In this document: piece by piece, positions 3,514 through 44,049 of the stretch | Layout of the letters: each line of letters begins with the position of its first letter | Numbering within the stretch: the stretch's first letter is position 1 | Source of the DNA: Bolinopsis microptera | Lineage: Eukaryota; Ctenophora; Tentaculata; Lobata; Bolinopsidae | Reading direction: 5' to 3' | Assembly (NCBI RefSeq): GCF_026151205.1 | Contig: NC_087073.1 | Span: forward strand, 16,201,837-16,265,836 | DNA: 64,000 nucleotides | Position numbers and translations under genes: made by a program | Notes under the pieces: model-generated | What the model was told of the DNA's origin: nothing | What the model saw: only the letters and a program-made list of their open reading frames with translations | Databases searched by the model: none

Positions 3514-5888
<2,375 letters not shown>

Positions 5889-6654
5889 CAGGGTGGGCCA
5901 AAAGTCAGTGTGCAAACGTTGGCCTTAATAGCTCAGTCACTGAGTGCCCAATTGAAATACTTCCTTCTGGTATGACTTAGTACCACCACTGGTTCGAGGA
6001 ATTTGTCAACTCGAAAAATATTCGCGTTCATTTTTTTCAAATGGAGGTTCATTTTCACATTTTTTTGATAGTTTGGATAATTGGATCAAGCTAAATGTTA
6101 TTGAATTGTGTTTGGCCATTCGAATTACGGTTGCCCTGAAAGAATGAGAGTTCTAGCTTCTCAGATGACCGAGATATGAAGCATAACAAGCTTGTTCATT
6201 ACGTGTGATCAGGTGATTGGTTTACCTAATCACGTGATAAGGTGACCCCGTTAACTACCCCGTTAAACATTATGGGAATTGTTAAGGGTGCCCAATTAAG
6301 GTGTCGTGTCACGGTGTCACATAATCACCCAGTCAATTTGTTAACGAGATACACAAAATGCTTGTTAACTTCGTCATTTCTAATCCGTTTTGCCTCATTT
6401 TTCCAGATCATATGCAACATTTGATAATCTACCGTCTCTAAAAAAATTAGGCGTTCAGGATTTTCAGAGAAAACGATATAGGTGTTTTAATATTGAATGG
6501 GCGTGGTCTAAAATATTCGAATTTTCAAATTTTGACGACGGAATCCTCGAACCAGTAAGTACAGTATGCCATCTGCAAAGCAACAGCTCTCAAATATAAA
6601 ACTCAGCGGAGGTATAAGACCCAACGTTTGCACACTGACTTTTGGCCCACCCTG
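5889..6654. mobile_element. mariner/Tc1-like MITE, copy 1
   Basis: A 766-bp non-autonomous element. The ends are inverted repeats of about 33 bp starting CAGGGTGGGCCAAAAGTCAG, and the element is flanked by TA on both sides (5887-5888, 6655-6656), the usual target duplication of the Tc1/mariner superfamily. No transposase frame is present. A second copy in opposite orientation lies at 28759-29513. Confidence 0.85.
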
Positions 6655-6656
6655 TA

Positions 6657-6985
6657 TTACTAACAACTAAGAGTCAGAGCATGTTCACTCTGTGCAGTAA
6701 CGTGTAATATCTGGATAGGAATATTATTTAAGAGTTGCATTGTTGTAAATGTAACTGAAATTACCATCTGGTCGGCCCATGGACCATGGTGATGTCAAAT
6801 GAATTAGTTAATTGCAAGAGTCACATCATTAGAGAAATGAGCTGTTGCGGATCCTTTAACATCAATTTAACCAGTCCAGTCATGTAATTTAACTTTAAGC
6901 ACAGGCCAACTCATAAATAATGTTCCTATCCAGATATTACACGGTACTATAATAACACATGCTATCTTACTCTTAGTAACAAAGT
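6657..6985. mobile_element. foldback MITE
   Basis: Inverted arms: GTGTAATATCTGGATAGGAA around 6702-6721 pairs with its reverse complement near 6924-6943, and weaker pairing (ACTAAGAGT) extends outward to about 6660 and 6980. The interior is non-coding. It abuts the mariner-like MITE at 6654. The exact ends and target duplication are not resolved. Confidence 0.55.
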
Positions 6986-16272: not shown

Positions 16273-19200
16273 ATGTTAAAAGCAGCGGTAACCGTGTTTC
16301 TGGTAGCTGTGGTTTACAGCAGTGGCGACGTAATAGACTACGACACACAGGGCGAATGGGGAGGAGTGTGTAACAAAGAGGAGTCCAAGAATCAGTCTCC
16401 TGTTGATGTGATATCCTCTGAAACCAGCACTGAAGTGGATGCTAAATTTGTTGAACTGAGTAAGATGCAACTTTGGATTTTCTTTTTATTATTACGTAAT
16501 TTGTTTCACATTGACGTAGTTAACTTAGGCATAATACTAATATCTATTAAGTTTAATTATTTAATTGCTTCCCCATTCCCAGGCTCTGGACAGGGTCTCG
16601 CTGCAACGAACGAAAATAACTTGAACGCCATCAAGATCAAGTTTACTGAGACAATTAAATACATGATTCCATGGATGGAAAACACTGAGGGCACGGTAAG
16701 TCAACCATTTCAATTTTAGGTGCTAATAGTATCTATTTGATCTTTGAACAAATCATAACTTATACTATGATACTTTATTATGATTCTTTTTTGGATCCTC
16801 AGCGACAAAATTTGATTACTATTTATGAGGTTTAAATTTGACCAAAACCCATAATCATGGGTAGAGTGAACCGCTGCCAGTGTCTCTCTTTTCCAAACAA
16901 AATAAAATGATATTAATTTGAGGAACCGTCTGCAAATTCAAATTGATACCGAGAATGAAATCGGTCGCTCGCTTTTCCCATTCATTCACGGCTTACGGAT
17001 TGTAATAAAGCTTATTGAATGGGAAAAGCGAGCGACCGATTTCATTCTCGGTATCAATTTGCATTTGAGACGGTTCCTCAAATTAATATCATTTTATTTT
17101 GTTTGGAAAAGAGAGACACTGGCAGCGGTTCACTCTACCCATGATTATGGGTTTTGGTCAAATATCATCTCTTTTTGATTATAATGTCAGGATTTGCTCG
17201 GAAGTCCCTTGTCTGCCCACCGAAGTACCACAACCGAAGTGGGTTTGCTCTGAGACAGGTAGTGACAGCTTCAAGACTCCAAAGGTCTGTTGCATTGATA
17301 TTTATTATTTTATGATTTCGTATATACTTTGGGAGTCCTGGAATGCAGCTAGCAGGAGTTGCATTCTGTGGGCACGGTGATAGAGCCTCCTTCTTTATAG
17401 TAAGAGGCCAGAAACCGTTGACCAGAACAGAGAGATAATGTCAGGATAATATACACAGTCGAAACTTCATTAATAAGGAGGTAATTTCAATTTTCAACGA
17501 TTTCGAAATTTTACCTTTGAAAACGTTTTCTTGTTTTAGGTATGCATATCTGTCGATAACAGACTGAATATGGCACTTTTCACTCATTCAAGTTGGCATT
17601 AAATTCATACATAATGCTATTTAAATATCGTGGGAAATCAGAATATATTCGAAATCACGAATAGGCAAAATTCTCACCTTTCGCACGTGCAAACTTTAAG
17701 CGGACGTTGCGTGCGCATACAATATTGAATCACCGTACATTTTTGCATAGTGGTATTTTATATATAGTTTGATAAGCATGCAAAGTTTCAGAAGATTTCA
17801 AAAAGAACTTGGATCACAACGGGACTCCAAAGTTGATAAAAATCGTGAAAATAACAATTTTTAGTGATTTTAGCTATTTTAAATGAATTTGGGCGTGTCC
17901 CCACGTGTGCAATTCGATTTGCAACTTTAAAACTAGCCTATAACAAAATTTAGACCTTTAGGAAACACAATTGAGCTCCACAACCCAAGGGATGGCCCAA
18001 CACCAGAGAATACTACTTCACAAATTTTGTGCTTTTATAAAATTATTCTTCAAAAAAGCACAAACTTCAATAGCGAATATCTTTATGAAGGAGCAAGGTA
18101 GGAAAACTTTCCGGTAGATTTTCAGAATGCTTGAACAATTATCTAAGGTAAAAATGTCCTCAGATTTTGAATAAAATTACTCCTTAATGCTTTAAAATCG
18201 ATTTGAAAAGTTGTTATTTTGTCAAAAATCAAGTTTTAAAAACACTTAACTTGATGACGTCATCAAGTGATGATGATGACGTTAAATTATTTTTTTAAAT
18301 AATCTAAACTAAAGCATAAACAATTATCTTTAAAACCTGTGGTTTGAAATGACTGTATCTTTTATACTTTTGAATCTACGGACACTTAAATGTAGGCTAC
18401 AATTGACTGCCAAAGCGTCTATCACAATGCTGGCAAGCATCTCGTGACAACTATTGTAGTTTTAATACTGTCATAGCAAGGACTAGGAATAGCTCAACTC
18501 TAATAAATTTTATTCGTTGTTATGACAGTAAGTAGAATAATAGGGGTGTGTATAAGAAAGAAGATGGCTCCCAGGAGGTTGAACTACCGCTTCCGGCCGG
18601 CATGCCATCCGTGACGTCATCCCACACGGCTTGAAGTGGTGTGACGTCATCTCACGTGGTGTAACGTGGTGCAATGCATCCTCAAATCCTGTCACATGAT
18701 GTGACATCATCTCACGTGGTGTGACGTGGTTCATCTCACGTGGTATGTCATCACCTCACATACTGTCACGTGATGTGATCTCATCTCACGTGGTTACTGC
18801 TCCCTTGCTTGCACCAGGGGGATAAATCATACCACGTGGTGTGACTCATCTCACGTGCTGTCTCATCACCTCACACACTGCCACATGGAGTGGTCTCATC
18901 TCACGTGGTGTAGTGTCATCTCACATCATGACTCATGGCTTGACCCAGGTCATGTGACCCACACAGTTATCCTATCATTATACCTTAACGTATACAGCCT
19001 GTCACGTGATTAGTCACATGATGCCAGACATGTCCTAATATGGAATAATTCTAGTCTTATCGTCAATGTGCCTGGATCTTGTTTCAGTGCAAACACATTC
19101 AGCTTGACACGTGATTACATCAAATATTTGAATGTGATATAAGACTGCTTTAACCCTTCAGACGTGCTGTAACCCCTATCTAGCCACATGATTGCATCAA

Positions 19201-22200
19201 TTAATAGAATGTTATATAATGCTGCTTTTACCCTTCAAATGTGTTTTAATTTTATCTAGTCACGTGATTACATCAATTATTAGAATGAGATTAAGACTGC
19301 TTTAACCCTTCAGATCTGCTTTGACTGTATCTAGTCACGTGATTACATTTGTGTAATGCAAAACGAGCAGGATTAGGTTAAAGTACCATGTCCCACCATA
19401 TGACACACCAGTGTAACATGAGTCTGCCTCTTACACCCCTCATATATATTTAAACCACGATGGAAACTGAGAAAGATGAAGCATAATCATAGAAATAGAC
19501 ACCTTTTTTCTGACAGCAGTTTGTAGTTTTCTGGGAACTCTTCTTTTAATTGCTTGAACTTTTCGATACCTGACTTTTTTAATATTTGATACCAACCTAC
19601 CAAGGGAAGTAGAAAGAAATGCAAAGCTGTCCAAGAAAATAAAGTTGTCAGTAAAAACAGCTTTGAACTTTTCAAGCGTCTCAGGGAGCACGTCCAATCT
19701 CTCGACTCGTTTTGTCAAATCTAGTAGGAAGAGGTTGAGATCATATCCTTTTAGCTTAAGCACAAATGCTGCAACCTTTATCGAAATAGTTTATGTTGCA
19801 GGAATTGCATGCTGCACCTCTAAAGTTATTCTCTTTCTTCAAGTAGTCATGATCTCGAACTGGGTAATTTTTTTCAGATTCCCAGTTCAATTTTCTGTGA
19901 CAGATTGTCGCACTCTTAAACTTCTTTTCATCCTCTGGCGTCATATTTATCGGAAGTTGGTTCTTTTCATAGCATTTCATCATCTCATCATGTATGCTAG
20001 CTAGCTGTGATATGAATTCTTCAGTCACAGGGATTAAAAGTATGATCAAATCGACTAGTAGTGTGGACATGTGTATCCAATCGAACGGGTATTCTGCTTG
20101 TACTGACTCCGCCATGGTAAATGACAAAGAATCATTTGATCACTATGGTTGGGTGGTAAACACTTTGAACAGTCATTATCATCTTTCATTGGGGATTTTG
20201 TAATAGGGAAAATCCAACGTGTAAGGAGTGTCACAAGGGATACGAACACTTTTTCAGTAACCCTTAACCATGTAGTTTCATATGTGGTTATCTTATTTTG
20301 TAATGTCACCCTCCGCCCCGGAGGGGCGGAGGGTGAGGGTGACTACTGACTTCCCCGGGGCAATTCACAAAGAATCATTTGATTAATGCTGATTGTGTGG
20401 TGGTCACTTTGAGCAAGCAATTCCATGTCTGAAAAATTGCATGTAATGTAGGAGTGTTATTCAATATATGAGGCTGACGTAGAGTGAGAGTACAGCTGTA
20501 ACAAGACCCAGATTCTGAATTTAGCAGTCTTTACCCAGATGAAGCATCATGTGACTAATCACGTGACAAGCTGTATGTATTGGGGTGAAACAACCTGTTG
20601 CAAGATGATAGTGGAATTTCAAAGTCACATTGCTTGCACCAGGGGATAAATCATACCACGTGGTGTGACTCATCTCACGTGCTGCCTCATCACCTCACAT
20701 ACTGCCACATGGAGTGCTCTCATCTCACGTGGTGTAGTGTCATCTCACATCATGACTCATGGCTTAACCCAGGTCATGTGACCCACACAGTTATTCTATC
20801 ATTATAACTTAACGTATACAGCCTGTCACGTGATTAGACACATGATGTCAGGCATGTCCTAATATGGAATAATTCTAGTCTTATCGTCAATGTTCCTGGA
20901 TCTTGTTTCAGTCCAAACACATACAGCTTGACACGTGACAGCCATTATATAGCGATAATCGCAAATAATCGCATGAAATAACATATTACATTAGTATATA
21001 ATAGATTATAATAGCATATAATAGCATATAATCCCATATAATAGTATATAATCGCATATAATCACATTCATTTATGCATATAATCACGTATATCATATCT
21101 AGTAAAATCACATTTTATTGTTTATACTCGCAAATAATCACATATAATTGCAAATAATCGCACATAATCGCATATAATCGCATGAAATAACATATAACAT
21201 TAGTATATAATAGCATATAATAGCATATAATCGCATATAATAGCATATAATCGCATATAATCACATATAATCGCATTCATTTATGTATATAATCACGTAT
21301 ATTATATCTTAAAATCACATTTTATTGTTTATACTCGCAAATAATCGCATATAATTGCAAATAATCACATATATAATAGCAGGGAGGGAATAATCCAACT
21401 TATACATACAACTTATTAAAGTTCCTTTCAAAGATTTATTTTCACACTGATTACCAAGCACCATCCTGGAGATGGAACTGTAACTCTTGAGTCTGTCGAG
21501 CACTGCACCCAACATGTAGGAATACCTCCCAGTGGGGACATCAAAGGATCACATCAGATGGTACAAGGGGATCATCGCAAATTCTATGTCAATTAGTCAG
21601 ACGGAGATCATATTCGAGATTTATCACTTTCTGAATTACCATTCATAACCAGTACTCAGCGCACCATTGATTTCTGCTTTCAAATGATAACTACTAATAC
21701 TTAATTATATGCGATTATTTGCATACATGATCAGTTATACGTGATTATATGGGATTATATGTGATTTATATACGAGAGTGAATGCAATTATCTCTGATTG
21801 TGTATAATTATATGCGATTATATGAGATTAATTGCATACATATATGAACAATTATACGTGAGTATATGGGATTATATATTATGATTTATGTATGTGAGTG
21901 AATGGGATAATCTGAGATTATGTATAATTACATGCGATTATATAGTATATATGTGATTATGTGTGATAGCAAGGTATAATACATGACAAGTTAAGCCAAC
22001 CAATAATGTCGATGCAGTTGAAGACCTCAAAGTTTTGTGAATCCATTTCTTTCCTTTGCACTGAAGGTAACATACCCAAAAAATTCAAAGCTAATGAATG
22101 TGAAAACATATACTTCTCCTTGGATTTACGAATTCCAAAACATCTCAGTAAACGACTTGATAAAAGCAATAATGGATATAAACAGGATAATAATGATTTA

Positions 22201-25200
22201 CCGAAATTTGGTTTCGTGAAGCGCTTAGAAAAGATCTTTGATAGGGATCTGATGACAAATAACCCCTGGTTCAACCCAGAAGTTGCGATAAATTATTTTG
22301 ACAAAAGGGTTAAAAAGGTTCGTTTTGTGACAACAGAAATCCAAGGTGACGTTCCACAGCTACCAAATTGCAGGAAAAATCACCTGATAGCTAAACCTGG
22401 TCAGTTACATGCCCCAAACTGTGAAAATTTCTCTCAGGAAACTGTTGAGATAATTGGTGATTATGCTTATCAAAACAGGCAATTCATCCTACAGGATCAT
22501 GAGGAGAGGGTTGCAAATTTACAAATGATGATGAGGAAAGGCCTAAAAATATAAGTTTCATGGAATTGAGATACTGGATATGATGTAAAGACTTATGCTT
22601 GGCTTTTCCTGGGGATTTCTCCATGTGGAGTGTGGCACATCACAGCAAAAGTGCATTCTTCCTAGATCAAGAGTACCAAGAGATTTGTCCATGTGAAGTG
22701 AGACACATCACAACAAAGGAGCATTCTTCCTAGATCAAGAGCATTGTGAGGAGTATGGTATGAGACGATGAGCATTCAATCACTCTTGGGAAGAAATCGT
22801 TTAGATGTTTAATTGAAGATATTTAATATTACATCTGAACTCTCACTCTACCTCAGCCTCATATATTGATTAACACTTCTTACTTTACACACAATTTTTC
22901 AGACATGGAATTACTTGTTCAAAGTGACCACCACACAATCACAATTAATTAAATGATTCTTTGTGAATTGAACACCCTCGTGGGAATTGCTCTAACATTT
23001 TTGTAAATGTATAATTTAAAAACATGTTTATTTCGAAAATTATCGATAATTTTCGAAATAAACATGTTTTTAAATTATACATTTACAAAAATGTTAGAGC
23101 AATTCCCACGAGGGTGTTCAATTCACAAAGAATCATTTAATCAATTGTGATTGTGTGGTGGTCACTTTGAACAAGTAATTCCATGTCTGAAAAATTGTGT
23201 GTAAAGTAAGAAGTGTTAATCAATATATGAGGCTGAGGTAGAGTGAGAGTTCAGATGTAATATTAAATATCTTCAATTAAACATCTAAACGATTTCTTCC
23301 CAAGAGTGATTGAATGCTCATCGTCTCATACCATACTCCTCACAATGCTCTTGATCTAGGAAGAATGCTCCTTTGTTGTGATGTGTCTCACTTCACATGG
23401 ACAAATCTCTTGGTACTCTTGATCTAGGAAGAATGCACTTTTGCTGTGATGTGCCACACTCCACATGGAGAAATCCCCAGGAAAAGCCAAGCATAAGTCT
23501 TTACATCATATCCAGTATCTCAATTCCATGAAACTTATATTTTTAGGCCTTTCCTCATCATCATTTGTAAATTTGCAACCCTCTCCTCATGATCCTGTAG
23601 GATGAATTGCCTGTTTTGATAAGCATAATCACCAATTATCTCAACAGTTTCCTGAGAGAAATTTTCACAGTTTGGGGCATGTAACTGACCAGGTTTAGCT
23701 ATCAGGTGATTTTTCCTGCAATTTGGTAGCTGTGGAACGTCACCTTGGATTTCTGTTGTCACAAAACGAACCTTTTTAACCCTTTTGTCAAAATAATTTA
23801 TCGCAACTTCTGGGTTGAACCAGGGGTTATTTGTCATCAGATCCCTATCAAAGATCTTTTCTAAGCGCTTCACGAAACCAAATTTCGGTAAATCATTATT
23901 ATCCTGTTTATATCCATTATTGCTTTTATCAAGTCGTTTACTGAGATGTTTTGGAATTCGTAAATCCAAGGAGAAGTATATGTTTTCACATTCATTAGCT
24001 TTGAATTTTTTGGGTATGTTACCTTCAGTGCAAAGGAAAGAAATGGATTCACAAAACTTTGAGGTCTTCAACTGCATCGACATTATTGGTTGGCTTAACT
24101 TGTCATGTATTATACCTTGCTATCACACATAATCACATATATACTATATAATCGCATGTAATTATACATAATCTCAGATTATCCCATTCACTCACATACA
24201 TAAATCATAATATATAATCCCATATACTCACGTATAATTGTTCATATATGTATGCAATTAATCTCATATAATCGCATATAATTATACACAATCAGAGATA
24301 ATTGCATTCACTCTCGTATATAAATCACATATAATCCCATATAATCACGTATAACTGATCATGTATGCAAATAATCGCATATAATTAAGTATTAGTAGTT
24401 ATCATTTGAAAGCAGAAATCAATGGTGCGCTGAGTACTGGTTATGAATGGTAATTCAGAAAGTGATAAATCTCGAATATGATCTCCGTCTGACTAATTGA
24501 CATAGAATTTGCGATGATCCCCTTGTACCATCTGATGTGATCCTTTGATGTCCCCACTGGGAGGTATTCCTACATGTTGGGTGCAGTGCTCGACAGACTC
24601 AAGAGTTACAGTTCCATCTCCAGGATGGTGCTTGGTAATCAGTGTGAAAATAAATCTTTGAAAGGAACTTTAATAAGTTGTATGTATAAGTTGGATTATT
24701 CCCTCCCTGCTATTATATATGTGATTATTTGCAATTATATGCGATTATTTGCGAGTATAAACAATAAAATGTGATTTTAAGATATAATATACGTGATTAT
24801 ATACATAAATGAATGCGATTATATGTGATTATATGCGATTATATGCTATTATATGCGATTATATGCTATTATATGCTATTATATACTAATGTTATATGTT
24901 ATTTCATGCGATTATATGCGATTATGTGCGATTATTTGCAATTATATGTGATTATTTGCGAGTATAAACAATAAAATGTGATTTTACTAGATATGATATA
25001 CGTGATTATATGCATAAATGAATGTGATTATATGCGATTATATACTATTATATGGGATTATATGCTATTATATGCTATTATAATCTATTATATACTAATG
25101 TAATATGTTATTTCATGCGATTATTTGCGATTATCGCTATATAATGGCTGTCACGTGTCAAGCTGTATGTGTTTGGACTGAAACAAGATCCAGGAACATT

Positions 25201-28200
25201 GACGATAAGACTAGAATTATTCCATATTAGGACATGCCTGACATCATGTGTCTAATCACGTGACAGGCTGTATACGTTAAGTTATAATGATAGAATAACT
25301 GTGTGGGTCACATGACCTGGGTTAAGCCATGAGTCATGATGTGAGATGACACTACACCACGTGAGATGAGAGCACTCCATGTGGCAGTATGTGAGGTGAT
25401 GAGGCAGCACGTGAGATGAGTCACACCACGTGGTATGATTTATCCCCTGGTGCAAGCAATGTGACTTTGAAATTCCACTATCATCTTGCAACAGGTTGTT
25501 TCACCCCAATACATACAGCTTGTCACGTGATTAGTCACATGATGCTTCATCTGGGTAAAGACTGCTAAATTCAGAATCTGGGTCTTGTTACAGCTGTACT
25601 CTCACTCTACGTCAGCCTCATATATTGAATAACACTCCTACATTACATGCAATTTTTCAGACATGGAATTGCTTGCTCAAAGTGACCACCACACAATCAG
25701 CATTAATCAAATGATTCTTTGTGAATTGCCCCGGGGAAGTCAGTAGTCACCCTCACCCTCCGCCCCTCCGGGGCGGAGGGTGACATTACAAAATAAGATA
25801 ACCACATATGAAACTACATGGTTAAGGGTTACTGAAAAAGTGTTTGTATCCCTTGTGACACTTCTTACACGTTGGATTTTCCCTATTACAAAATCCCCAA
25901 TGAAAGATGATAATGACTGTTCAAAGTGTTTACCACCCAACCATAGTGATCAAATGATTCTTTGTCATTTACCATGGCGGAGTCAGTACAAGCAGAATAC
26001 CCGTTCGATTGGATACACATGTCCACACTACTAGTCGATTTGATCATACTTTTAATCCCTGTGACTGAAGAATTCATATCACAGCTAGCTAGCATACATG
26101 ATGAGATGATGAAATGCTATGAAAAGAACCAACTTCCGATAAATATGACGCCAGAGGATGAAAAGAAGTTTAAGAGTGCGACAATCTGTCACAGAAAATT
26201 GAACTGGGAATCTGAAAAAAATTACCCAGTTCGAGATCATGACTACTTGAAGAAAGAGAATAACTTTAGAGGTGCAGCATGCAATTCCTGCAACATAAAC
26301 TATTTCGATAAAGGTTGCAGCATTTGTGCTTAAGCTAAAAGGATATGATCTCAACCTCTTCCTACTAGATTTGACAAAACGAGTCGAGAGATTGGACGTG
26401 CTCCCTGAGACGCTTGAAAAGTTCAAAGCTGTTTTTACTGACAACTTTATTTTCTTGGACAGCTTTGCATTTCTTTCTACTTCCCTTGGTAGGTTGGTAT
26501 CAAATATTAAAAAAGTCAGGTATCGAAAAGTTCAAGCAATTAAAAGAAGAGTTCCCAGAAAACTACAAACTGCTGTCAGAAAAAAGGTGTCTATTTCTAT
26601 GATTATGCTTCATCTTTCTCAGTTTCCATCGTGGTTTAAATATATATGAGGGGTGTAAGAGGCAGACTCATGTTACACTGGTGTGTCATATGGTGGGACA
26701 TGGTACTTTAACCTAATCCTGCTCGTTTTGCATTACACAAATGTAATCACGTGACTAGATACAGTCAAAGCAGATCTGAAGGGTTAAAGCAGTCTTAATC
26801 TCATTCTAATAATTGATGTAATCACGTGACTAGATAAAATTAAAACACATTTGAAGGGTAAAAGCAGCATTATATAACATTCTATTAATTGATGCAATCA
26901 TGTGGCTAGATAGGGGTTACAGCACGTCTGAAGGGTTAAAGCAGTCTTATATCACATTCAAATATTTGATGTAATCACGTGTCAAGCTGAATGTGTTTGC
27001 ACTGAAACAAGATCCAGGCACATTGACGATAAGACTAGAATTATTCCATATTAGGACATGTCTGGCATCATGTGACTAATCACGTGACAGGCTGTATACG
27101 TTAAGGTATAATGATAGGATAACTGTGTGGGTCACATGACCTGGGTCAAGCCATGAGTCATGATGTGAGATGACACTACACCACGTGAGATGAGACCACT
27201 CCATGTGGCAGTGTGTGAGGTGATGAGACAGCACGTGAGATGAGTCACACCACGTGGTATGATTTATCCCCCTGGTGCAAGCAAGGGAGCAGTAACCACG
27301 TGAGATGAGATCACATCACGTGACAGTATGTGAGGTGATGACATACCACGTGAGATGAACCACGTCACACCACGTGAGATGATGTCACATCATGTGACAG
27401 GATTTGAGGATGCATTGCACCACGTTACACCACGTGAGATGACGTCACACCACTTCAAGCCGTGTGGGATGACGTCACGGATGGCATGCCGGCCGGAAGC
27501 GGTAGTTCAACCTCCTGGGAGCCATCTTCTTGCTTATACACACCCCTATTATTCTACTACAATAATATAACTCTGAATGTTAACAAGTTTTTTAAAAGAC
27601 TGTAGAAGAAGATATCATGCCTCATTCGTTGGAGTTCTCAGACCCGTCGACACTCTACTGCACAATTTCTAAGAAGAGGGTTGACTTCCTCAAAATGGGA
27701 AACAGGAGAAAAAGCTACAGACCATCAAGGCAGAATTAAAAGAATCATTTACCTAATACTTTTTAACAGTCACAGAGTTTTATAATAAATGAAATCGGTC
27801 GATCGCTTTTCCCATTCATTCACGGCTTACGTATTGTAATATAATAAAGCTTATTGAATGGGAAAAGCGAGCGACCGATTTCATTCTCGGTATCAATTTG
27901 CATTTGCGGACGGTTCCTCAAATTAATATCATTTTCTTTTGTTTGGAAAAGAGAGACACTGGCAGCGGTTCACTCTACCCATGATTATGGGTTTTGGTCA
28001 AATATTCACAATACTATTTACCCCCTTTACTATTTACCCCCCTTTACTATTTACCCCCTTTATTATTTACCCCCTTTATTATTTACCCCCTTTATTATGT
28101 ACCCCCTTTACTTTTATACCCCCTTTACTATTATACCCCCTTTACTATTATACCCCCTTTACTATTATACCCCTTTATTTTTTTTGCCACGACAGTTTAA

Positions 28201-31177
28201 TGTCATTATATATGAATTTAATTCCAATTTGAATGAGTATTAAGTGGTATATTCAGTCAGTGATCGACCGATATGCTTACCTAAACACAAGGAAATGTTT
28301 TTAAAAGAAAAATTTCGAAATCGTTGAAACTTCCTCCTTATTAATGAAGATATCAGTTTATATTTCAAATTTATAAAGTACCCTGACATTATAATCAAAA
28401 ATTGTAATAGATTAAGAATAACTATCCGAAGGCAGCTGTACTCGGCAATAAAGATTCAATAAACTTCAGCTAATTCAATAAGTAATAAATACCACCCTTA
28501 CCCCGAAATACTAGGTATCGACCCGAACGCAACCCAAAGAGATTTTTACAGCATCTGATTGATGTAATCAATCGAAACTTATTACAATTCGTAAGCAGTG
28601 AATGTATGGGAAAAGCGAGCGAACGATTTCATTCTCGGTATCATTTTGCATTTGAGAACGGTCAATCAAATTAATATCATTTCCTTTTGTTTGGGAAAGA
28701 GAGACACTGGCAGCGGTCCACTCTACCCATGATTATGGGTTTTGGTCAAATATATATACAGGGTGGGCCAAAAGTCAGTGTGCAAACGTTGGGTCTTATA
28801 CCTCCGCCGTGTTTTCTATTTGAGGGTTGTTGCTTTGCAGATGGTTTACTGTACCTACTGGTTCGAGGATTCCGTCACCAAATTTTGAAAATTCGAATAT
28901 TTTAGACCACGCCCATTCAATATTAAAACACTTATATTGTTCTCCCCGAACATGCTAGATGTCTAATTTTTTTAGAAACGGTAGATTATTAAATGTTGCA
29001 TATGATCTGAAAACATGAGGCAAAACGGATTAGAAATGACAAAGTTATCAAGCATTTTCTGTCTCTCGTTAACAAAATTGACTGGGTGATTATGTGACAC
29101 CGTGACACGACACCTTAATTGGGCACCCTTAACAATCCCCATAATATTTAACGGGGTTACCTTATCACGTGATTAGGTAAACCAATCACCTGATCACACG
29201 TAATGAATTAACTCGTTATGCTTCATATCTCGGTCATCTGAGAAGCTACAGTTCTAATTCTTTCAGGACAAACGTAATTCGAATGGCCAAACACAATTCA
29301 ATAACGTTTAGCTTGATCCTACTATCCAAACTATCAAATAAATGCAAAAATGAACCTTCATTTGAAAAAAATGAACGCGAATATTTTTCGAGTTGACAAA
29401 TTCCTCGAACCAGTGGTGATACTAAGTCATACCAGAAAGAAATATTTAAATTGGGCACTCAGTGACTGAGCTATAAAGGCCAACGTATGGGTACTGACTT
29501 TTGGCCCACCCTGTATATATATCCATAGACACAGTGTTTCGTCCTATTAGGACTCATCAGTATGGCTCAAATCATCAAGGTTGGTTTTGCCGATGGCGGG
29601 TATCGATCCAGCTCAAGGTTGGTTTTGCCGATGGCGGGTATATATATACTTCACGACAATCTGTTGTAAAACAGGGGTTCCAGAAAACCTACTTCCCGAT
29701 ACTCCTGAAACATAAAATTTTTTACATTCGATTTGGACAAACTGCAAAGTTTCAGATCTCTAACTCAATTTTAACATGGTTTTTAAGGCACCTGAATATG
29801 GCGATTTTGGGATTTTTACCTAATTTTGTATAACATGCTGGCGCGTATTTTGCGCAAATTTCTTAAAAACCTCCACATAACTATTTCTTATTCCTGTCAT
29901 CTTTAACATTGAATTAAAATGTTTTTTACTTAAATATACCTGCTGAACTACTTTCGATGAATATTAATGCCTGGAAAACAATAAAGGGGATATAATAGTA
30001 TAGGGGGTAAATATTGTAGGTTTATAACCTACCAGGACGCGCGCCGAGTTGGACTCGTCGACGGTCCTGGAATATGGAACAGATATTTTACGAGTATCAC
30101 CCGTTAAGGGTAAATAGTATTGTGAATATAACGGCAACGGTAATGCTTGCCAGCATTGTGATAAACAATTGAACGCATATTCATGGTGGTAATAAGGGAT
30201 AGTCAATCCACTTTCAAAGGTAATGACATCCTGTTCTCTGACTGCAGGTGGCACAACTACATCTCCATTGGGGGGCTCAGGATAGTGACGGATCTGAGAA
30301 CTGGCTGGACGGGAAACAGTTCTCTGCTGAGGCGCATCTTGTTACTTCTTACGGAGACGGATCAAAATACGCTGTTATCAACCGTTTCTTCAAAGTCGTA
30401 AGTTACATGCTACCAACGTTATGCTAGCAGCTGGAAGTGGACCACAAATGCCACTTATCGTCGATTGAATATCTGCTGTTGAGTTTTAGTAGGGAGTTGA
30501 TATAAAAGATTAAATTTAGCTGTAAATTCCTTATCCTATGTTAAATAAATCTTCAGGGTGCAGAGAATGCTCAGATCGCTAAAATGATCGCTTCAGCTGA
30601 AGCAGAGGGTGAAAATAGAGACAGTAAGTTTCGCCAATCAAATTTATTATAAAATTCAATAAGTATTGTCAGAATTGGTCATCATCACTGATTTTCTGAA
30701 GACGGTCGAAGGAAATCCACTAACTTAACGTTTTTACAGTTGCGGATTTCGACTTGAGTGCCCTCTTTCCAAGTGACATCAAGGAGGTCATAACGTATGA
30801 AGGTGGATTGACTACCCCTGAGTGTGACGAAGTTGTTCACTGGATTGTCGTTCCCGAACCTCTCACAATATCAACCGCACAGGTATGACATTTGGAACAA
30901 AATATGACAAAAACAACAATTCGTCTGATTCAACATAATATAGCATTATGATTTAATACCATAGGAAAAATACGCATTATCCTTTCAGTTGGCTAAATTG
31001 AGGGTAGTTAAACTCGGTGACGGGACTGGAGACGCCAAGACTTTCAACTGGAGGAACAAACAAGATTTAAATGAACGAACCTTCAAGCACTATAAAATGA
31101 AGACCTCAGCCTCCGCCGCTACTGTTATCTCACCTCTGCTTGCTCTTCTGGCACTCATTGTTAATGTGTTATGCTAA
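16273..31177 (+). CDS. secreted, likely GPI-anchored alpha-carbonic anhydrase (split gene)
   Basis: Zinc enzyme of the alpha family, CO2 + H2O to bicarbonate. Located exons: 16273-16459, 16583-16695, 30248-30397, 30557-30623, 30740-30882, 30989-31177; every junction is GT-AG and the phases agree. Exon 1 gives a signal peptide (MLKAAVTVFLVAVVYSSG) and the family start GEWGGVC...NQSPVDV. The third exon gives QLHLHWGA (first two zinc His) and GSEN...SAEAHLV (third zinc His). Later exons give YEGGLTTPECDEVVHWIV and FNWRNKQ. The C-terminal hydrophobic tail (ATVISPLLALLALIVNVLC) fits a GPI signal. Oddities: GSEH is GSEN and HLVH is HLVT. The segment of roughly 25 residues before QLHLHWG is not found, so at least one small phase-0 exon is missing from my model inside the 13.5-kb intron 16696-30247, which is packed with mobile DNA. 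Catalytic activity is likely but not proven. Confidence 0.88.
16836..17163. mobile_element. palindromic MITE, full copy in carbonic anhydrase intron
   Basis: A 328-bp near-perfect palindrome centred near 17000. Outer arms start ATTTGACCAAAACCCATAAT and continue through TCTCTCTTTTCCAAAC and GAAATCGGTCGCTCGCTTTT; the short centre contains ATTCACGGCTTACG. The reverse arm repeats all of this. Partial copies lie at 27788-28005 and 28598-28752, all inside the same host intron. Confidence 0.8.
17164..18530. other. intron DNA, no confirmed feature
   Basis: A Cys-containing open stretch at 17192-17283 (ICSEVPCLPTEVPQPKW...) has splice-like borders but the wrong phase for the carbonic anhydrase. Part of 17440-17520 (TTCATTAATAAGGAGG) recurs inverted near 28300-28350. 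The remainder is AT-rich and unassigned. Confidence 0.4.
18805..19114. repeat. 310-bp direct repeat, outer copy (left arm)
   Basis: Runs from TTGCTTGCACCAGGGG to AGCTTGACACGTGA and matches 20630-20938 with scattered differences; mirror copies lie at 26975-27284 and 25151-25459. It is rich in CACGTG sites. The two copies bracket the polymerase remnant. Confidence 0.85.
19440..20127 (-). pseudogene. protein-primed family B DNA polymerase remnant, left arm
   Basis: Mirror copy of 25962-26649. The first frame (20127-19756, 123 aa) ends in an HNH-like zinc motif, VRDHD at residues 90-94 and FRGAACNSCN at 102-111, which precedes the exonuclease part of DNA_pol_B_2 proteins in Polintons and related elements. 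The next frame (19763-19440) carries the GYDLNLFLLDL and FIFLDSFAFLSTSLGRLV blocks of the same family. Frame changes between these parts and a stop soon after leave it without polymerase motifs, so it is non-functional. No restored product is given. Confidence 0.7.
20307..20335. repeat. GC-rich perfect hairpin
   Basis: 13-bp arms (CACCCTCCGCCCC and its complement) with a 3-base loop, in otherwise AT-rich DNA. Mirrored at 25754-25782. Could be a structural or protein-binding site of the element. Confidence 0.7.
20630..20938. repeat. 310-bp direct repeat, inner copy (left arm)
   Basis: Second copy of 18805-19114 (see there); the copies differ by scattered substitutions and a one-base length change, so the duplication predates formation of the palindrome, whose arms are far more alike. 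Confidence 0.85.
20941..21380. repeat. AATCGCATAT-type minisatellite (left arm)
   Basis: Degenerate 10-bp units (ATAATCGCAT, ATAATAGCAT, ATAATCACAT) with a higher-order duplication of about 200 bp, visible from the repeated ATTTTATTGTTTATACTCGC block. A second, shorter tract in the reverse sense lies at about 21690-21960. Mirrored at 24709-25148 and 24129-24399. Confidence 0.8.
22006..22554 (+). CDS. 182-aa hypothetical protein, left arm copy
   Basis: An intact frame of 182 aa, exactly repeated on the opposite strand at 23535-24083. Basic, with no signal peptide or membrane segment; contains a possible Cys/His pair (NCRKNH, HAPNCENF) and a charged C-terminal helix (DHEERVANLQMMMRKGLK). I do not recognise the family. 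It is flanked by minisatellite and lies toward the palindrome centre. It may be a Polinton gene or gene fragment; whether it is expressed is unknown. Confidence 0.45.
   Translation: MSMQLKTSKFCESISFLCTEGNIPKKFKANECENIYFSLDLRIPKHLSKRLDKSNNGYKQDNNDLPKFGFVKRLEKIFDRDLMTNNPWFNPEVAINYFDKRVKKVRFVTTEIQGDVPQLPNCRKNHLIAKPGQLHAPNCENFSQETVEIIGDYAYQNRQFILQDHEERVANLQMMMRKGLKI
22555..23534. repeat. centre of the 9-kb palindrome
   Basis: Symmetric non-coding DNA with the exact dyad between 23044 and 23045 (TTATC|GATAA). About 490 bp on each side of the dyad, including a repeat (GGTGGTCACTTTGAACAAG...CATGTCTGAAAAATTG) that also occurs at about 20399-20510 farther out. No spacer or loop separates the arms. 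Confidence 0.85.
23535..24083 (-). CDS. 182-aa hypothetical protein, right arm copy
   Basis: Amino-acid-identical mirror copy of 22006-22554, on the other strand. The two copies point toward each other across the centre. No known domain recognised. Confidence 0.45.
   Translation of the reverse strand: MSMQLKTSKFCESISFLCTEGNIPKKFKANECENIYFSLDLRIPKHLSKRLDKSNNGYKQDNNDLPKFGFVKRLEKIFDRDLMTNNPWFNPEVAINYFDKRVKKVRFVTTEIQGDVPQLPNCRKNHLIAKPGQLHAPNCENFSQETVEIIGDYAYQNRQFILQDHEERVANLQMMMRKGLKI
25151..25459. repeat. 310-bp direct repeat, inner copy (right arm)
   Basis: Mirror of 20630-20938. Confidence 0.85.
25962..26649 (+). pseudogene. protein-primed family B DNA polymerase remnant, right arm
   Basis: Mirror of 19440-20127, reading toward the right end of the element. 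The visible frames are 25962-26333 (HNH-like motif, residues 90-111) and 26326-26649 (exonuclease-region blocks); a third frame, 26414-26602, continues the similarity, so at least two frame changes are present. Only the part upstream of the polymerase palm is left. Beyond 26649 lies the CACGTG-rich outer repeat. DNA_pol_B_2 with this finger is typical of Polintons, related viruses and linear plasmids; the family call is firm, the exact source is not. Confidence 0.7.
26975..27284. repeat. 310-bp direct repeat, outer copy (right arm)
   Basis: Mirror of 18805-19114. Confidence 0.85.
27788..28005. mobile_element. palindromic MITE, truncated copy
   Basis: Matches the inner left arm, the centre and the whole right arm of 16836-17163, but lacks its outer left 110 bp or so. 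Starts GAAATCGGTCGATCGC, ends GGGTTTTGGTCAAATAT. A minisatellite starts just after it. The stretch 27565-27787 before it shows no feature. Confidence 0.75.
28009..28190. repeat. pyrimidine-rich minisatellite
   Basis: About a dozen units of 14-17 bp with consensus ACTATTTACCCCCTTT, drifting to ACTATTATACCCCCTTT. It produces artificial Pro/Leu/Tyr-rich frames. Its first unit (CACAATACTATTTACCC) is found inverted at about 30108-30127. Confidence 0.85.
28598..28752. mobile_element. palindromic MITE, right-half copy
   Basis: Third copy of the 16836-17163 family, containing only the right arm (GGGAAAAGCGAGCGAACG to TTTTGGTCAAATAT). The mariner-like MITE at 28759 begins a few bases later, so the two were joined by insertion at a TA within or beside its end. 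28191-28597 shows no gene. Confidence 0.7.
28759..29513. mobile_element. mariner/Tc1-like MITE, copy 2
   Basis: 755 bp, same family as 5889-6654 but in the opposite orientation: its left end continues GGGTCTTATACCTCCGCC, the complement of the right end of copy 1. CAGGGTGGGCCAAAAGTCAG termini and TA flanks. Non-coding. Lies in the carbonic anhydrase intron. Confidence 0.85.
29577..29640. repeat. short tandem duplication
   Basis: CAAGGTTGGTTTTGCCGATGGCGGGTAT occurs twice about 37 bp apart. The remainder of 29514-30247 is intron DNA with no identified exon; a block near 29985-30130 carries inverted copies of the 28009 minisatellite units. Confidence 0.6.
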
Positions 31178-37331: not shown

Positions 37332-37354
37332 AATAATTTCTGCACCGGATCATA
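37332..37354. repeat. left 23-bp target-site duplication of the LINE pair
   Basis: The 23 bases starting AATAATTTCTGCACCGGAT are repeated exactly at 42846-42868. The last four (CATA) also occur at the junction between the two LINE copies (41544-41547), so they may belong to the element's 3' end or be microhomology used in priming. Confidence 0.9.
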
Positions 37355-40300
37355 GGGTAAAGATACAGTTAAACTGCGAAGGCACAACACCAAACCAACC
37401 CTACTCAATCTCCCAAAAACAACCTTCTCCTGGTCGGCTATGTCCCTCATCCTGCACTTGACCCCCGCAGAGGTCACAAGCCCATCGGAGCACAAATGAG
37501 CGAGAAACGGGGAAGCCTTAGCTACCGGGCCAAGGACTGCATCACTAGCAGCGAAATACGGATATACCCTCCCTTTTACACGCGTTCAACCGGCACCCGA
37601 ACCACACGCTGTTTCTTAGACATAACTTCCCACTTACATCAGTGTCTTCTCGCACCAACTGGCATCGGCAAGTGGCGACACTGTGTAGACTCAACCCTGA
37701 GCTTGATCAGAATCTTCAGTCACAAACCTGACACCGTTTCGGGGCTTTCATTGCGATACGGTTTTCTGTCAGGTGCCCCAGCAGTCTCTCTTGGACCACC
37801 ATCTGATCTGACAATCACCCGAGGATACCTGCTAGAGCTCGCGATTTACGACGAGTTAGCTTATGGCACCTCTGGCTGTTAGGTGAAGTCATAAAGCTCA
37901 AACAGCTCTCATCTCCCACTCTCTTTTCCTAGACAGCAGATAAATCCATCTTGAACAATGGGCTGCATCCTTCCCACAATCTCTGACCAACTTCTTGAGG
38001 GCTCTCCCAGACAGACCAATCTTCCTTGATGCACACTCCAAACTTGCTGCGACCACACCTCTAGCACCAACCTCAACAGCCAAGCTGAAACATGACCACC
38101 CATTAGCTTGTATTTCCGCTTGTAGACTGTTATACCGATCAAGCTTCAGCTCATGGGATGCAGCTATTCTCTCTTCCGACGGTACTGTAAGCTCCCACCA
38201 GATTACTCTCTTGGAAGCTTTCGAGAAAAGAACCAAATCTGGTCTTAATCTGGTCGTTGCTATATCCGACGGGAATTTCAGCTGCTTATCCAGGTCTGCT
38301 AATACTATCCAATCAGTGGCCCCACTCAGAATCCCAAACTCACTGACTTTCGACCTCTTCACCTCCTTAAACCTCCCTCCTGCTGGAACAAACTCAATGG
38401 CTTTCCGAGTGACACAAGAACTCTTCCTCTTGTTGACTCTCCGCTCACAATGGAATTTAACCTGGTCTGCTATTTGTTTAAGCACCTTATCGTGGCGCCA
38501 TCGGTATCTCCCTTGACTTAGTGCCACAGGACAACCAGCCAGGATATGCGGCACAGTTCCCAACTTGTCACCACACAGCTTGCACATCCCATCCTCATCC
38601 TCGCTCCACTTGGATGCTAAAGCTGGTGTAACAAGCGTGCCATACACAGCACTAAGCAGAAAACCGATTAATGAGTCCCCATACTTGAAGAGCGTGTGCC
38701 AGCTCATGTCAGTCCTTGTCACCAGCTCTCTCCAATTACCCCACCTGGACTGCATCTCCAACGTACCCAACTGCACCTCTCTTTCCTTCCTGATGTTCTC
38801 CTTAACCCTATCCAACACCTCCCTCTGCTGCTCCTTTTCTGACATCTTCTCCCAGGGCTTCTTCCAATCACCGAAACCAATTCCCGCTCTACTAAGAGGT
38901 TGCACCATACCTCGCACTGTCTCACACACCAAGTCTCTTTCAGCTTCGTGAAGCTGAGCATCTGCCTTCCAAACTCTCCCAGACCGCACCTGGGGTTGCA
39001 CCGCTCTGATCAAAGCATCCTGAGATGTTTGATATGACTGCAAGAGACGGCACTTTTCTACTTTCCAAGTGTCGGTTAGGCTGTCGATGGGGAGAGCAAC
39101 ACTGGATGAATGACTAAACAGGCAAGAGCTACTAAGCGTGTGTCCCACTCCTAGCCATTTTCTGAGATGACTGTTAGTTGTTTGCTCCCAGCGAGAAACA
39201 GTGCTGATCGGGATATCATAAATGGCAAGTGGCCACTTCATCTTTGGAAGGACCATATACTGATACCCCCAACATTTCTGCAGGCCGGTGAGGGAGCTAA
39301 GATCGAGTCTACTGAGGTATGTAATAAGATCCTCGTGTGTTTTCTCGATTATAGCTTTGTCCTTTCCTTCTGCCCGAATCCACCTCCCTAGAAACTTGAT
39401 TGGTTTCTCAGATACATTCGGGATCACCTCCCCGCTAAGCTGCAACCTCGCCTGACTACCTTCTGAACTCTCTACAACCCACTCCACTGTCACTCCCTTC
39501 TGGTAGACTAGTGCCCTAGATTTAGACGACTTAAGCTTGAACCTTGACCACACAACGAACTCCTGATAAACATCAAGCAGGGTTTGCATATCTACCATTT
39601 TAGCCGTGGTAAGGCAGCTATCATCCATAAACAGCTTAAGGGGTGGTATAGCTGTTCCATCCTTAATGTACTCGACACTCCTGGGTACCTTCATCTTCAA
39701 GTACTCGTCAGAAAGGTTCATGCATAGCACAAACAAGATCACCGAGATGACACAGCCCATAAATATTCCTATCTCGAACTGCTGCCACTCTGATGTCACT
39801 GTTTTAGAGGAGAATCTTCCGTAAACTTCCGAGAAGTATTTGATTACGATGTTGATAACTTTCTCGGGGATATGATAGAAGCGGAGTGCTTTCACAATAA
39901 GTAAATGTGGAACAGCCCCGTAAGCATTCGCCAAGTCTAACCAGACAACACTGAGATCCTTTTTCTTAACTCTAGCATCTTTGAGCACCTCCCACATAGC
40001 TCCAAAGTGCTCTGTACATCCGTGTACACCAGGAACTCCACCCTTCTGCACTGAGAGATCCACATACCCGTTAGCGACAACAAAGTTGGTTAATCTCTTC
40101 GCCAACACAGTGAGGTATATCTTCCCCTGAATGTTTCCTAGCGATATAGGCCGTCCTGTGCTGGGTCCAAAATCTCCATCCGCCTTAGGAATGTAGATCC
40201 CTTCAAAGTACCTACAGTTGTCTGGGTACTCCTCAGCCTTGTAGCCTCCTCTCAGCACATGCCACAAGTTCTGAGATATTCCTGGACACCTCTTGTACAC

Positions 40301-41547
40301 CGTATACGGGATGCCGTTGTTACCAGGTGAACTCTTACCTCTGGCTTTCTTAACAACCTCGTCGAACTCCTTCTTGGTTATATTCCTGATGTCAAACCCC
40401 ACAGTTGGGCTAGGAGCTGCCTCAGGTAACCCATTCAGAACGCCAAGAGGAACTGCCCGACTGGCATCACTATACGTATTAGACAGGTGGTTGTCTAACT
40501 CCTCCTTACTACACTTTAACTCTCCCACAGGGCTTGGTTCAAGAATACCTTTAATAGCCTTGAAAGGATCTCGAGTAAACCCACCTCTCTGTCTCCTCAC
40601 TTCTCTCTGCTTCTTCCTCCTTGCCTCTGCTCTTCTCAACTTACACAGCTTCTCTGCCAGGCCTCTAAGTAAAGCATTGAAACCTTCCTTTACAGACTGG
40701 GAACAAGCTTTCCTGGCTTTCCTCCTCAGCTCTCTCCTCTCAATGACCAACTTATCAATCTCCTCCTGTCTCCTGTTGGCAAACCTGAGACCTTTACCTG
40801 ACTCTGCACCATCAATCACGAGCCCAAACCATTCCACACCTTCATCATACACCGTGTCGCAATGGCTCACCATCTTCTCCTGGAATGGCTTCCCCTTCTG
40901 CTCCTGTCTTACTCTCTTACTAACACTCACATCAAACTCTACCCACCTCTCATCCTTTGCGGCCGGCCACTTCACCTTGGGCTTCTTAGGGGCAGGTGGG
41001 TCAATAGAAGAACTCTTTGAAAGAAGGGCCTGGATATCCCTGGCACTGTGGTTATCGTCCTGGCCAGGTACCTCCACCGAATTTACAGATGCAACATCTA
41101 ACGGCTGCTCCCCTTCCCAAGAGCACTTCATCCTTCCTCGATGAATGTTCCTACCCCTTTCCGTTGTAAAGCGTCGACCACACACGCAGCTAAACTCCTC
41201 TGCTACATCAGAATCAGGGGTCGAGAGCTCTCGACTGTTTGTATAAGTCCTTTTCTGATTCATGGCAGGACGTGGTGGGTGTCCACAAAGCCTTTATTTT
41301 TCACCCGGGCAACTCGTCCCTAAATAGGAACTCCCGGAACCTTAGAGAGGCAGGAGGCGCAGGACCGATGTGGACTAGGAGGTCTCCGCTCGTTAAAACC
41401 CCATCACACCTCTCTATTGCAGTAACCGCTGCAGGCACGGATCTCAACTCAACCCAGAAGCCAATTCCAAGTGTAGCATCTGTTCAAATCAGGTGGGCCT
41501 TACCCCACGGTAGCTGGCCAATCCCAGCAGTATCATAAAGTAGCATA
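37355..41547 (-). mobile_element. full-length R2/HERO-like non-LTR retrotransposon
   Basis: About 4.19 kb, transcribed leftward: 5' end near 41547, 5' untranslated part of about 280 nt, one ORF (41263-37898), 3' untranslated part of about 540 nt ending at 37355. The 3' end is joined directly to the left target duplication. The 5' end is joined directly to the 3' end of a second, truncated copy. The target is not 28S rDNA as far as the short flanks show. The intact ORF and perfect duplicated segment suggest a recent insertion. Confidence 0.92.
37898..41263 (-). CDS. LINE ORF, reverse transcriptase with restriction-like endonuclease
   Basis: An intact 1,121-aa protein for target-primed reverse transcription. 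N-terminus: one zinc finger (C26, C28, H41, C47) for DNA binding, then a basic linker. Reverse transcriptase: SPGNNGIPY (312-320), GRPISLGN (370-377), VQKGGVPGVHGC, WLDLANAYG with catalytic Asp443, and FMDD at 545-548 with Asp547/548. C-terminus: CCHC knuckle (C894, C897, H906, C911), then a PD-(D/E)xK-like nuclease with RPDLVLF (P1008, D1009) and WWELTVP (E1024). This layout fits the R2/NeSL/HERO group with one ORF and no apurinic endonuclease. FMDD instead of FADD is unusual but keeps both Asp. I assign the group from domain order; the exact clade needs a tree. Chosen start: first ATG of the frame, upstream of the finger. Confidence 0.93.
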   Translation of the reverse strand: MNQKRTYTNSRELSTPDSDVAEEFSCVCGRRFTTERGRNIHRGRMKCSWEGEQPLDVASVNSVEVPGQDDNHSARDIQALLSKSSSIDPPAPKKPKVKWPAAKDERWVEFDVSVSKRVRQEQKGKPFQEKMVSHCDTVYDEGVEWFGLVIDGAESGKGLRFANRRQEEIDKLVIERRELRRKARKACSQSVKEGFNALLRGLAEKLCKLRRAEARRKKQREVRRQRGGFTRDPFKAIKGILEPSPVGELKCSKEELDNHLSNTYSDASRAVPLGVLNGLPEAAPSPTVGFDIRNITKKEFDEVVKKARGKSSPGNNGIPYTVYKRCPGISQNLWHVLRGGYKAEEYPDNCRYFEGIYIPKADGDFGPSTGRPISLGNIQGKIYLTVLAKRLTNFVVANGYVDLSVQKGGVPGVHGCTEHFGAMWEVLKDARVKKKDLSVVWLDLANAYGAVPHLLIVKALRFYHIPEKVINIVIKYFSEVYGRFSSKTVTSEWQQFEIGIFMGCVISVILFVLCMNLSDEYLKMKVPRSVEYIKDGTAIPPLKLFMDDSCLTTAKMVDMQTLLDVYQEFVVWSRFKLKSSKSRALVYQKGVTVEWVVESSEGSQARLQLSGEVIPNVSEKPIKFLGRWIRAEGKDKAIIEKTHEDLITYLSRLDLSSLTGLQKCWGYQYMVLPKMKWPLAIYDIPISTVSRWEQTTNSHLRKWLGVGHTLSSSCLFSHSSSVALPIDSLTDTWKVEKCRLLQSYQTSQDALIRAVQPQVRSGRVWKADAQLHEAERDLVCETVRGMVQPLSRAGIGFGDWKKPWEKMSEKEQQREVLDRVKENIRKEREVQLGTLEMQSRWGNWRELVTRTDMSWHTLFKYGDSLIGFLLSAVYGTLVTPALASKWSEDEDGMCKLCGDKLGTVPHILAGCPVALSQGRYRWRHDKVLKQIADQVKFHCERRVNKRKSSCVTRKAIEFVPAGGRFKEVKRSKVSEFGILSGATDWIVLADLDKQLKFPSDIATTRLRPDLVLFSKASKRVIWWELTVPSEERIAASHELKLDRYNSLQAEIQANGWSCFSLAVEVGARGVVAASLECASRKIGLSGRALKKLVRDCGKDAAHCSRWIYLLSRKREWEMRAV

Positions 41548-42868: not shown

Positions 42869-43061
42869 AGATAAGCCTGATCACAAATGTAATAATGTAA
42901 GGTAAAGTCGAGCGCGTTTAGGATTAAAACATTGTGAACTCTACGAGCGTTGGAATCAGTCCCATGACTAATCTGATATCAGTTGTAAATTGTAATGAGA
43001 GTGAGATTTGATAATAATGTTAACGTCTCAATGACGGGACAGACATCAGTAGTCAGGTTAC

Positions 43062-43933: not shown

Positions 43934-44049
43934 AATCAGTTATTACACTTTTCAATATGTTTGTATTCTATATTTCTATTGCTCGCTTATCAGTTGCTTA
44001 ACACTACGTTGATAAGACTAATTGCTTGTTTTATCAGTGGCGTGTTTTT

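Follow-up and report, generated by a model that had tools for sequence, protein, structure and literature searches.

A spacerless 9-kb palindrome with Polinton-type ends in Bolinopsis microptera, a probable integrated snap-back genome

In the genome of the ctenophore Bolinopsis microptera (assembly GCF_026151205.1), a stretch of 64,000 nucleotides, referred to here as the window (contig NC_087073.1, C2:16201837-16265836), contains a palindrome of 9,028 bp at positions 18531-27558, which carries the ends of a Polinton (Maverick) and consists entirely of terminal inverted repeat (TIR). The question raised by this locus is how an element that is all TIR was generated and inserted into the chromosome. 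The features described below suggest that a non-autonomous Polinton was integrated here in the form of a symmetric snap-back genome, which we consider the probable explanation. All structures were read from the assembled sequence, and the assembly searched comprises 264.65 Mb in 232 contigs.

The arm-to-arm alignment revealed two arms of 4,514 bp with neither an indel nor a spacer, in which each position x is paired with position 46089-x. The coordinates of the two mirror arms given in a first-pass annotation of the window were thereby reproduced exactly. That annotation had counted at least three substitutions between the arms and had proposed to align them; the alignment gave four mismatches in 4,514 positions (18557/27532, 20226/25863, 20244/25845 and 22947/23142). 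The complementarity ends exactly at the border of the element, beyond which two different flanks follow, and the window contains no N bases. No perfect spacerless palindrome with arms longer than 10 nt and an axis outside the element was identified in the window, so that an origin of the 9,028-bp palindrome by chance is excluded. The terminal segment (arm 1-928) is carried at both ends in mirrored form, and the element thus has the form of a snap-back genome, that is, a self-complementary dimer of one genome end, as had been proposed from the first pass.

The palindrome is flanked by the hexamers ACAGTA and ACAATA, which differ at one base; pairs of 6-mers drawn at random from the window agree in at least five of six positions in 0.6% of 200,000 draws. 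When the flanks were joined with the 6-mer present once (94 bp), matches to a dispersed repeat were listed at 20 places, the two weakest of which are the window's own flanks; the remaining 18 all cross the junction. A single ACAATA is present at the junction in all nine uninterrupted paralogues that were fetched from these 18. This implied that ACAATA was the target, that it was duplicated at insertion, and that the left copy was changed afterwards, so that the flanks named in the first-pass annotation were confirmed and the duplication was fixed as ACAATA. The clean 6-bp insertion into a repeat also implied that both palindrome borders are true element termini, and this is the strongest argument against a fold-back error of the assembly. 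One duplication brackets the entire palindrome, consistent with the earlier claim that it was integrated as a unit; for this reason, two separate Polintons inserted head to head were rejected as an explanation.

The termini of the element, AGTAGAATAA...TTATTCTACT, are of the AG/CT type and are common to the window element and four relatives. Together with the duplicated ACAATA, this bears out the Polinton-type ends and the 6-bp target duplication noted in the first pass, and, judged by its ends and its duplication, the element is a Polinton derivative. Each arm contains a remnant of a putative family B DNA polymerase gene (PolB), located at 20028-19500 on the minus strand and, in the mirror arm, at 26061-26589, which is split over three frames with a stop. 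The remnant matches residues 475-656 of an intact frame of 1,223 residues (L028) located elsewhere in the genome. The intact frame and a relative with 79% identity contain the motifs DFE, NNSIYGK and DTDS, which we take to be B-family-like; with these frames, no polymerase family was identified in Pfam or PHROGs and no polymerase among the PDB sequences, and in the viral contigs scanned with PolB one stretch fitted the pattern and no relative was confirmed. The earlier claim had placed remnants of such a polymerase in the two arms. The broken fragment in each arm was substantiated, and its naming as a protein-primed family B polymerase is a putative assignment based on these motifs and on the company in which the gene is found.

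The window element contains no frame longer than 182 codons, and four of its six distinct frames of at least 80 codons were scanned without a family above the cut-off. These frames revealed neither an integrase nor a protease or capsid gene, and the element is therefore a non-autonomous derivative. In the relatives C7:17082598-17096137, C11 and C12, 13 of 26 frames of at least 120 codons were scanned, and neither an integrase nor a capsid gene was identified; no genome-wide search for the integrase was made, and a helper element may exist. An adenovirus-type protease was identified in C7:17082598-17096137 (PF00770, E 8e-5, above cut-off), the match of C12 to PF00770 was below cut-off (E 0.0045), and tblastn with the protease of C7:17082598 gave relatives of 89-90% identity in C11 and C12, so that three of the four relatives encode this protease. 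The C7:17082598 element also shows a faint PolB match (24%, E 1.4e-12), and a 449-residue frame of this element, compared with PDB sequences, had one weak, unrelated match.

These four relatives, designated family A together with the window element, were identified in an assembly search in which 40 of 125 candidates were scored, so that the counts are lower bounds. Each of them shares the 20 terminal bases and the outermost 0.7-0.9 kb with the window element and has a perfect 6-bp duplication (Table 1). Such a search for elements with the same terminus had been proposed as a check in the first-pass annotation, and it retrieved C11, which has an interior of 6,137 bp. When the end of the C7:17082598 element was used as query, the ten strong ends listed corresponded to the same four relatives and the window element. 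The first-pass annotation had also named a full-length relative with a natural TIR of already 4.5 kb and a lost spacer as a finding that would refute a snap-back. This was half borne out, since C11 has a TIR of 4,273 bp, but the window arm does not run collinearly with that TIR, and the palindrome is thus not simply the C11 TIR minus its spacer. In C11 the inner blocks, and in C12 one block, are oriented opposite to the window arm. In a tree, the left and right arms of the same copy cluster in five of five family A elements (up to 743 bp). The left TIR of C12:1926555-1941066 contains a LINE-type (long interspersed nuclear element) retrotransposon frame with reverse transcriptase and endonuclease domains (L009 2370-6670).

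Further fold-back elements were revealed by a search of the assembly with the intact PolB. It gave 25 places, including five single copies with 97-100% identity, weaker single matches, and the fragments in the window and in C12. Seven places at 77% and one partial match at 78% were found to be inverted pairs in four elements, designated family D, all of which are fold-backs. C7:6690411-6705670 is palindromic throughout. The identity of its arms is 99.56% in 6,606 aligned columns and, for the central 2,037, 98.8%, and the element turns within a C/T-rich tract, where about 50 bases match poorly. A stop-free PolB frame of 1,219 codons is present in each arm, with 1,218 residues identical. The other three elements are looped and have perfect 6-bp duplications, and their turn-around could be traced only on the arms of other fold-back elements, none of them unfolded. 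On the C7:6690411 arm, C9:6594451 runs inward to 714 and outward again from 451, with a junction overlap of 2 bp, and C9:662254 runs inward to 465 and outward again from 161, with an overlap of 1 bp. On pieces of C9:662254, the inner arm of the C13 element joins directly to PolB, with an overlap of 2 bp. The C9 and C13 arms were fetched in part, and the remainder was derived from collinear coordinate pairs. The three looped elements have the appearance of one and the same parental end, folded back at other points.

A third group, family B, was retrieved with a 300-bp query taken from the start of one member; 40 of 51 candidates were scored, and here also the counts are lower bounds. At least 17 end pairs, 5.6 to 18.4 kb apart, were found in addition to single ends. 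The ends of the four members that were read out are AGTAGAWGGKAA, and their duplications are ACACGG, GAAGAT and GCGGGG, which are perfect, and ATCATC/ATCAGC, with one mismatch. Among the matches listed, the family B copies have in common with the window arm an AT-rich array and parts of the 182-codon frame. The TIRs are 2.7-3.3 kb long and the loops range from at most 186 to 3,987 bp (eight elements measured). When a tree was built from an arm segment of 1.1 kb, the arms of the same copy clustered in ten of ten elements, being 0-0.94% apart. For C4:15528358-15535032 (L021), self-alignment through the centre gave 98.4% identity with 34 gap columns, the centre lying within the AT-rich array. An exact axis was not found in this element; its spacer was put at no more than 186 bp, and it may be a third spacerless palindrome. 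In eight of nine other family B copies, the match of at least one arm to C4 starts at 271 in the C4 half; four of these eight (L018, L019, L020 and L025) have an opposite arm that extends past 271.

TIR lengths were compared for 16 related elements, leaving out C12 (LINE and indels in its TIR), C3a and C3b of family B, and the other family B end pairs, for want of inner arm limits. In this non-random sample, 14 of the 16 TIRs are longer than 1,447 bp. For 134 intact vertebrate Mavericks, PMC8097293 gives TIRs of 46-1,447 bp (mean 402 +/- 276), lengths of 12.7-24.6 kb and the end motifs (AGT)2 and (AG)3; a size of about 15-20 kb for Polintons is given in PMC4028283. The window element resembles Polintons in its AG...CT-type ends (here AGTAGA or AGTAGT), the 6-bp duplication, the putative PolB gene and the adenovirus-type protease of its relatives. 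With 9,028 bp and 100% TIR, however, it lies outside the usual dimensions, and 14 of the 16 measured elements exceed the vertebrate maximum given in PMC8097293. The impression of a singular oddity conveyed by the first-pass annotation did not hold, since TIRs of several kilobases are common in the related elements measured and C7:6690411-6705670 represents a second, near-perfect spacerless palindrome.

For the window element, the following course is proposed. Extrachromosomal copying of a linear parental element, which was probably protein-primed, would have started from one end, and the synthesis would have folded onto its own strand at or near TTATCGATAA and copied back to the same end. The product would be a linear palindrome with the identical terminus twice, and hence with an origin and an integration signal at both ends. 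Element-encoded functions acting in trans, presumably including an integrase, could then have inserted it into the dispersed repeat, producing the 6-bp duplication, and four substitutions between the arms and one between the duplicates would have followed. At the axis, TTATCGATAA could form a tiny hairpin with a self-complementary loop, which would leave no spacer. A displaced self-complementary strand would fold into a full hairpin, in which mismatches between the arms could be corrected in every cycle, and this would explain why arms group by copy. Such grouping, found for ten of ten family B and five of five family A elements, is expected if both arms were derived from one strand or were mutually corrected.

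Several observations weigh against this proposal. Among the 40 of 125 candidates scored in the assembly, none was an unfolded parent with the block order of the arm. The 18-mer ending at the axis has its own mirror as the sole other occurrence in the assembly; the turn-around of the window element is therefore not traceable on a parent, and its snap-back step is inferred from the relatives. No integrase gene was identified in the part of the frames scanned. With C11, the family contains a TIR of 4.3 kb without a palindrome. By raw distance, one arm of C12 and one arm of the family B element C8 are nearer to another copy than to their own partner, and in a small tree of three family D elements the arms cluster by copy in two of the three, the exception being C7:6690411 (2/735 differences). 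The looped family D elements could equally be derived from a C7-like palindrome with its centre deleted and would then represent no separate snap-backs. Moreover, the relatives were retrieved with the window arm or a PolB query and are not a random sample.

Of the other explanations, an assembly artefact is considered very improbable. Palindromes pose difficulties in library preparation and in assembly, and the present reading is derived from an assembly. However, a fold-back read error would duplicate one flank, whereas the flanks found here differ and rejoin with a 6-bp duplication; in addition, the arms differ at four sites, two points which uphold the earlier judgement that an artefact is unlikely, and similar elements are present at many loci. 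An origin from two broken copies of one linear replicon, end-joined head to head before integration, could be seen in the junction overlaps of 1-2 bp in the family D relatives, since such overlaps are typical of end-joining. For adeno-associated virus (AAV), non-homologous end joining has been proposed for symmetric and asymmetric snap-back genomes in PMC8235507. Yet two elements with no or almost no spacer would require two breaks at almost one base, and three of the four family D loops are no longer than 303 bp, for which a rough probability of 0.002 was obtained for random joining over 7.6 kb with uniform and independent breaks assumed; this route is regarded as improbable. Little credence is also given to a normal or long-TIR Polinton that was inserted first and turned into a palindrome within the chromosome by a break, a hairpin or a repair template switch. 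Inverted repeats are known to drive fold-back rearrangements of chromosomes (PMC7999016 and PMC3907307), and C11 would be a possible long-TIR starting state. Against this, both flanks and both duplicates are retained without loss at the borders, the same architecture is found at distinct loci, all of which have an intact duplication of their own, and the window arm is not collinear with the C11 TIR.

It is possible, if on balance unlikely, that an old snap-back gave rise to a palindromic master which was propagated in trans, with the window element as a further copy and the looped relatives as descendants with deleted centres. This explanation overlaps with an integrated snap-back genome, as it alters the timing of the snap-back and not its occurrence. 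The start at 271 in eight of nine family B copies, overrun by the opposite arm in four, resembles a common arm boundary, and all family D loops can be explained as deletions over the C7:6690411 centre with overlaps of 1-2 bp. On the other hand, the window centre has no second copy in the assembly, and the turn points differ between families A and D.

Palindromic inverted dimers of one end are formed by the protein-primed linear DNA of adenovirus and of the yeast linear killer plasmids, and these derivatives are extrachromosomal and not known to be integrated. Foldback-type DNA transposons such as FB and Galileo have very long, repeat-rich TIRs, as found here, and differ from the window element in their ends, duplication length and enzymes, and they are not known to carry a PolB. 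Replication of AAV is not known to be protein-primed. To our knowledge, it is not settled whether free, protein-primed linear DNA or virions are the form in which Polintons replicate. Symmetric and asymmetric snap-back (defective interfering) genomes of AAV have been sequenced and, according to PMC8235507, are self-complementary dimers of one end with or without an unpaired part, like the elements described here. Unlike these, they are packaged parvovirus genomes and are not seen there as chromosomal insertions with 6-bp duplications, whereas both forms found here are chromosomal insertions. No report of palindromic Polintons was met among the open-access papers listed in our searches, which is weak evidence of absence, as subscription papers were mostly outside its scope.

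An integrated one-end fold-back is the trace expected from free protein-primed replication, and in it turn points and loops are legible to the single base. It is a matter of roughly even chances whether one-end snap-back is frequent in an extrachromosomal linear stage of the Polintons of this genome, with the resulting symmetric and asymmetric end-dimers behaving as defective genomes do, being inserted in trans and prevailing in some families. If so, chromosomes would retain a sequence record of the replication of a protein-primed, virus-like element. Palindromic defective Polintons, if common, would form a new class of long-TIR elements and would be likely causes of chromosome fragility and candidate sources of hairpin RNA against the element; if transcribed, such palindromes would yield long hairpin RNA against PolB.

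From the end to the centre, each arm of the window element contains the family A end, the broken PolB, a sub-terminal block, a partial copy of the terminal segment, the AT-rich array, the 182-codon frame and an inverted block (Table 1).

Table 1. Features of the window element and its family A and family D relatives. Positions without a contig label are those of the window.
Feature	Position	Strand	Remarks
Left target-site duplicate ACAGTA	18525..18530		mutated from ACAATA, according to uninterrupted paralogues
Left arm	18531..23044	+	4,514 bp
Polinton terminal segment (arm 1-928)	18531..19458	+	starts AGTAGAATAATAGGGGTGTG; 96-97% to both ends of C11 and C7:17082598 relatives
Broken PolB fragment	19464..20029	-	residues 475-656 of intact L028 frame; 90% DNA identity
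Sub-terminal block (arm 1759-2065)	20289..20595	+	99% to both C11 ends, to one end only of C1:7846793-7850563
Second, partial terminal-segment copy	20630..20938	+	20642-20938 96% to 18818-19114
AT-rich array, units of about 10 bp	20955..21373	+	also in family B elements
Open 182-codon frame	22006..22554	+	parts present in C11, C12 and family B elements; Pfam scan without a match above cut-off
Near-centre block (arm 4299-4440)	22829..22970	+	inverted copy, about 90%, of arm 1831-1971, i.e. of the sub-terminal block
Symmetry centre TTATCGATAA	23040..23049		axis between 23044 and 23045
Right arm	23045..27558	-	reverse complement of left arm save 4 bases
Near-centre block, mirror	23119..23260	-	arm symmetry
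182-codon frame, mirror	23535..24083	-	identical copy
AT-rich array, mirror	24716..25134	-	arm symmetry
Partial terminal copy, mirror	25151..25459	-	arm symmetry
Sub-terminal block, mirror	25494..25800	-	arm symmetry
PolB fragment, mirror copy	26060..26625	+	match to L028 frame
Terminal segment, mirror copy	26631..27558	-	arm symmetry
Right target-site duplicate ACAATA	27559..27564		flank read-out and uninterrupted paralogues
Family A relative	C11:8527957-8542639		duplication CAAGAC; TIR 4,273 bp (99.63%); interior 6,137 bp
Family A relative	C7:17082598-17096137		duplication TATATC; TIR about 1.14 kb
Family A relative	C1:7846793-7850563		duplication AGCTGA; TIR 914 bp
Family A relative	C12:1926555-1941066		duplication GACTTC; TIR 0.8-1.2 kb, LINE-interrupted
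Family D relative (L053, L056, L057)	C7:6690411-6705670		15,260 bp; duplication TACTTG; palindromic throughout, no spacer
Family D relative	C9:662254-674315		duplication GACGTC; arms about 5.9 kb; loop 303 bp
Family D relative	C9:6594451-6608817		duplication CTTGTT; arms about 7.05 kb; loop 259 bp
Family D relative	C13:13624197-13632401		duplication TCTTAG; arm limit within PolB; loop about 3,780 bp

Just before the axis, 37 bp of the window (22997-23033) are identical to C11:8534319-8534355 in the unpaired interior of C11. This match was considered as the parental turn-around and rejected, as it stops short of the axis and explains nothing yet. Compared to C12 (L010, about 4950-5110), the arm (22960-22995) is 51 bp shorter close before the axis. 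The missing piece is bounded by two GAATTG words and resembles a deletion by short homology.

Additional repeats were identified in the window. An inverted pair of about 0.77 kb flanks the palindrome on either side (5887-6657 and 28756-29515, 91-98% identity by segment), and a perfect inverted pair of 96 bp, separated by 136 bp, is located at 16836-16931 and 17068-17163, with its sequence found again, inverted, at 27855-28003. Two direct copies of a sequence of at least 300 bp, without a difference between them, lie 4.2 kb apart at 37351-37650 and 41544-41843, and a tandem array with a period of 36 bp extends from 42936 to 44061.

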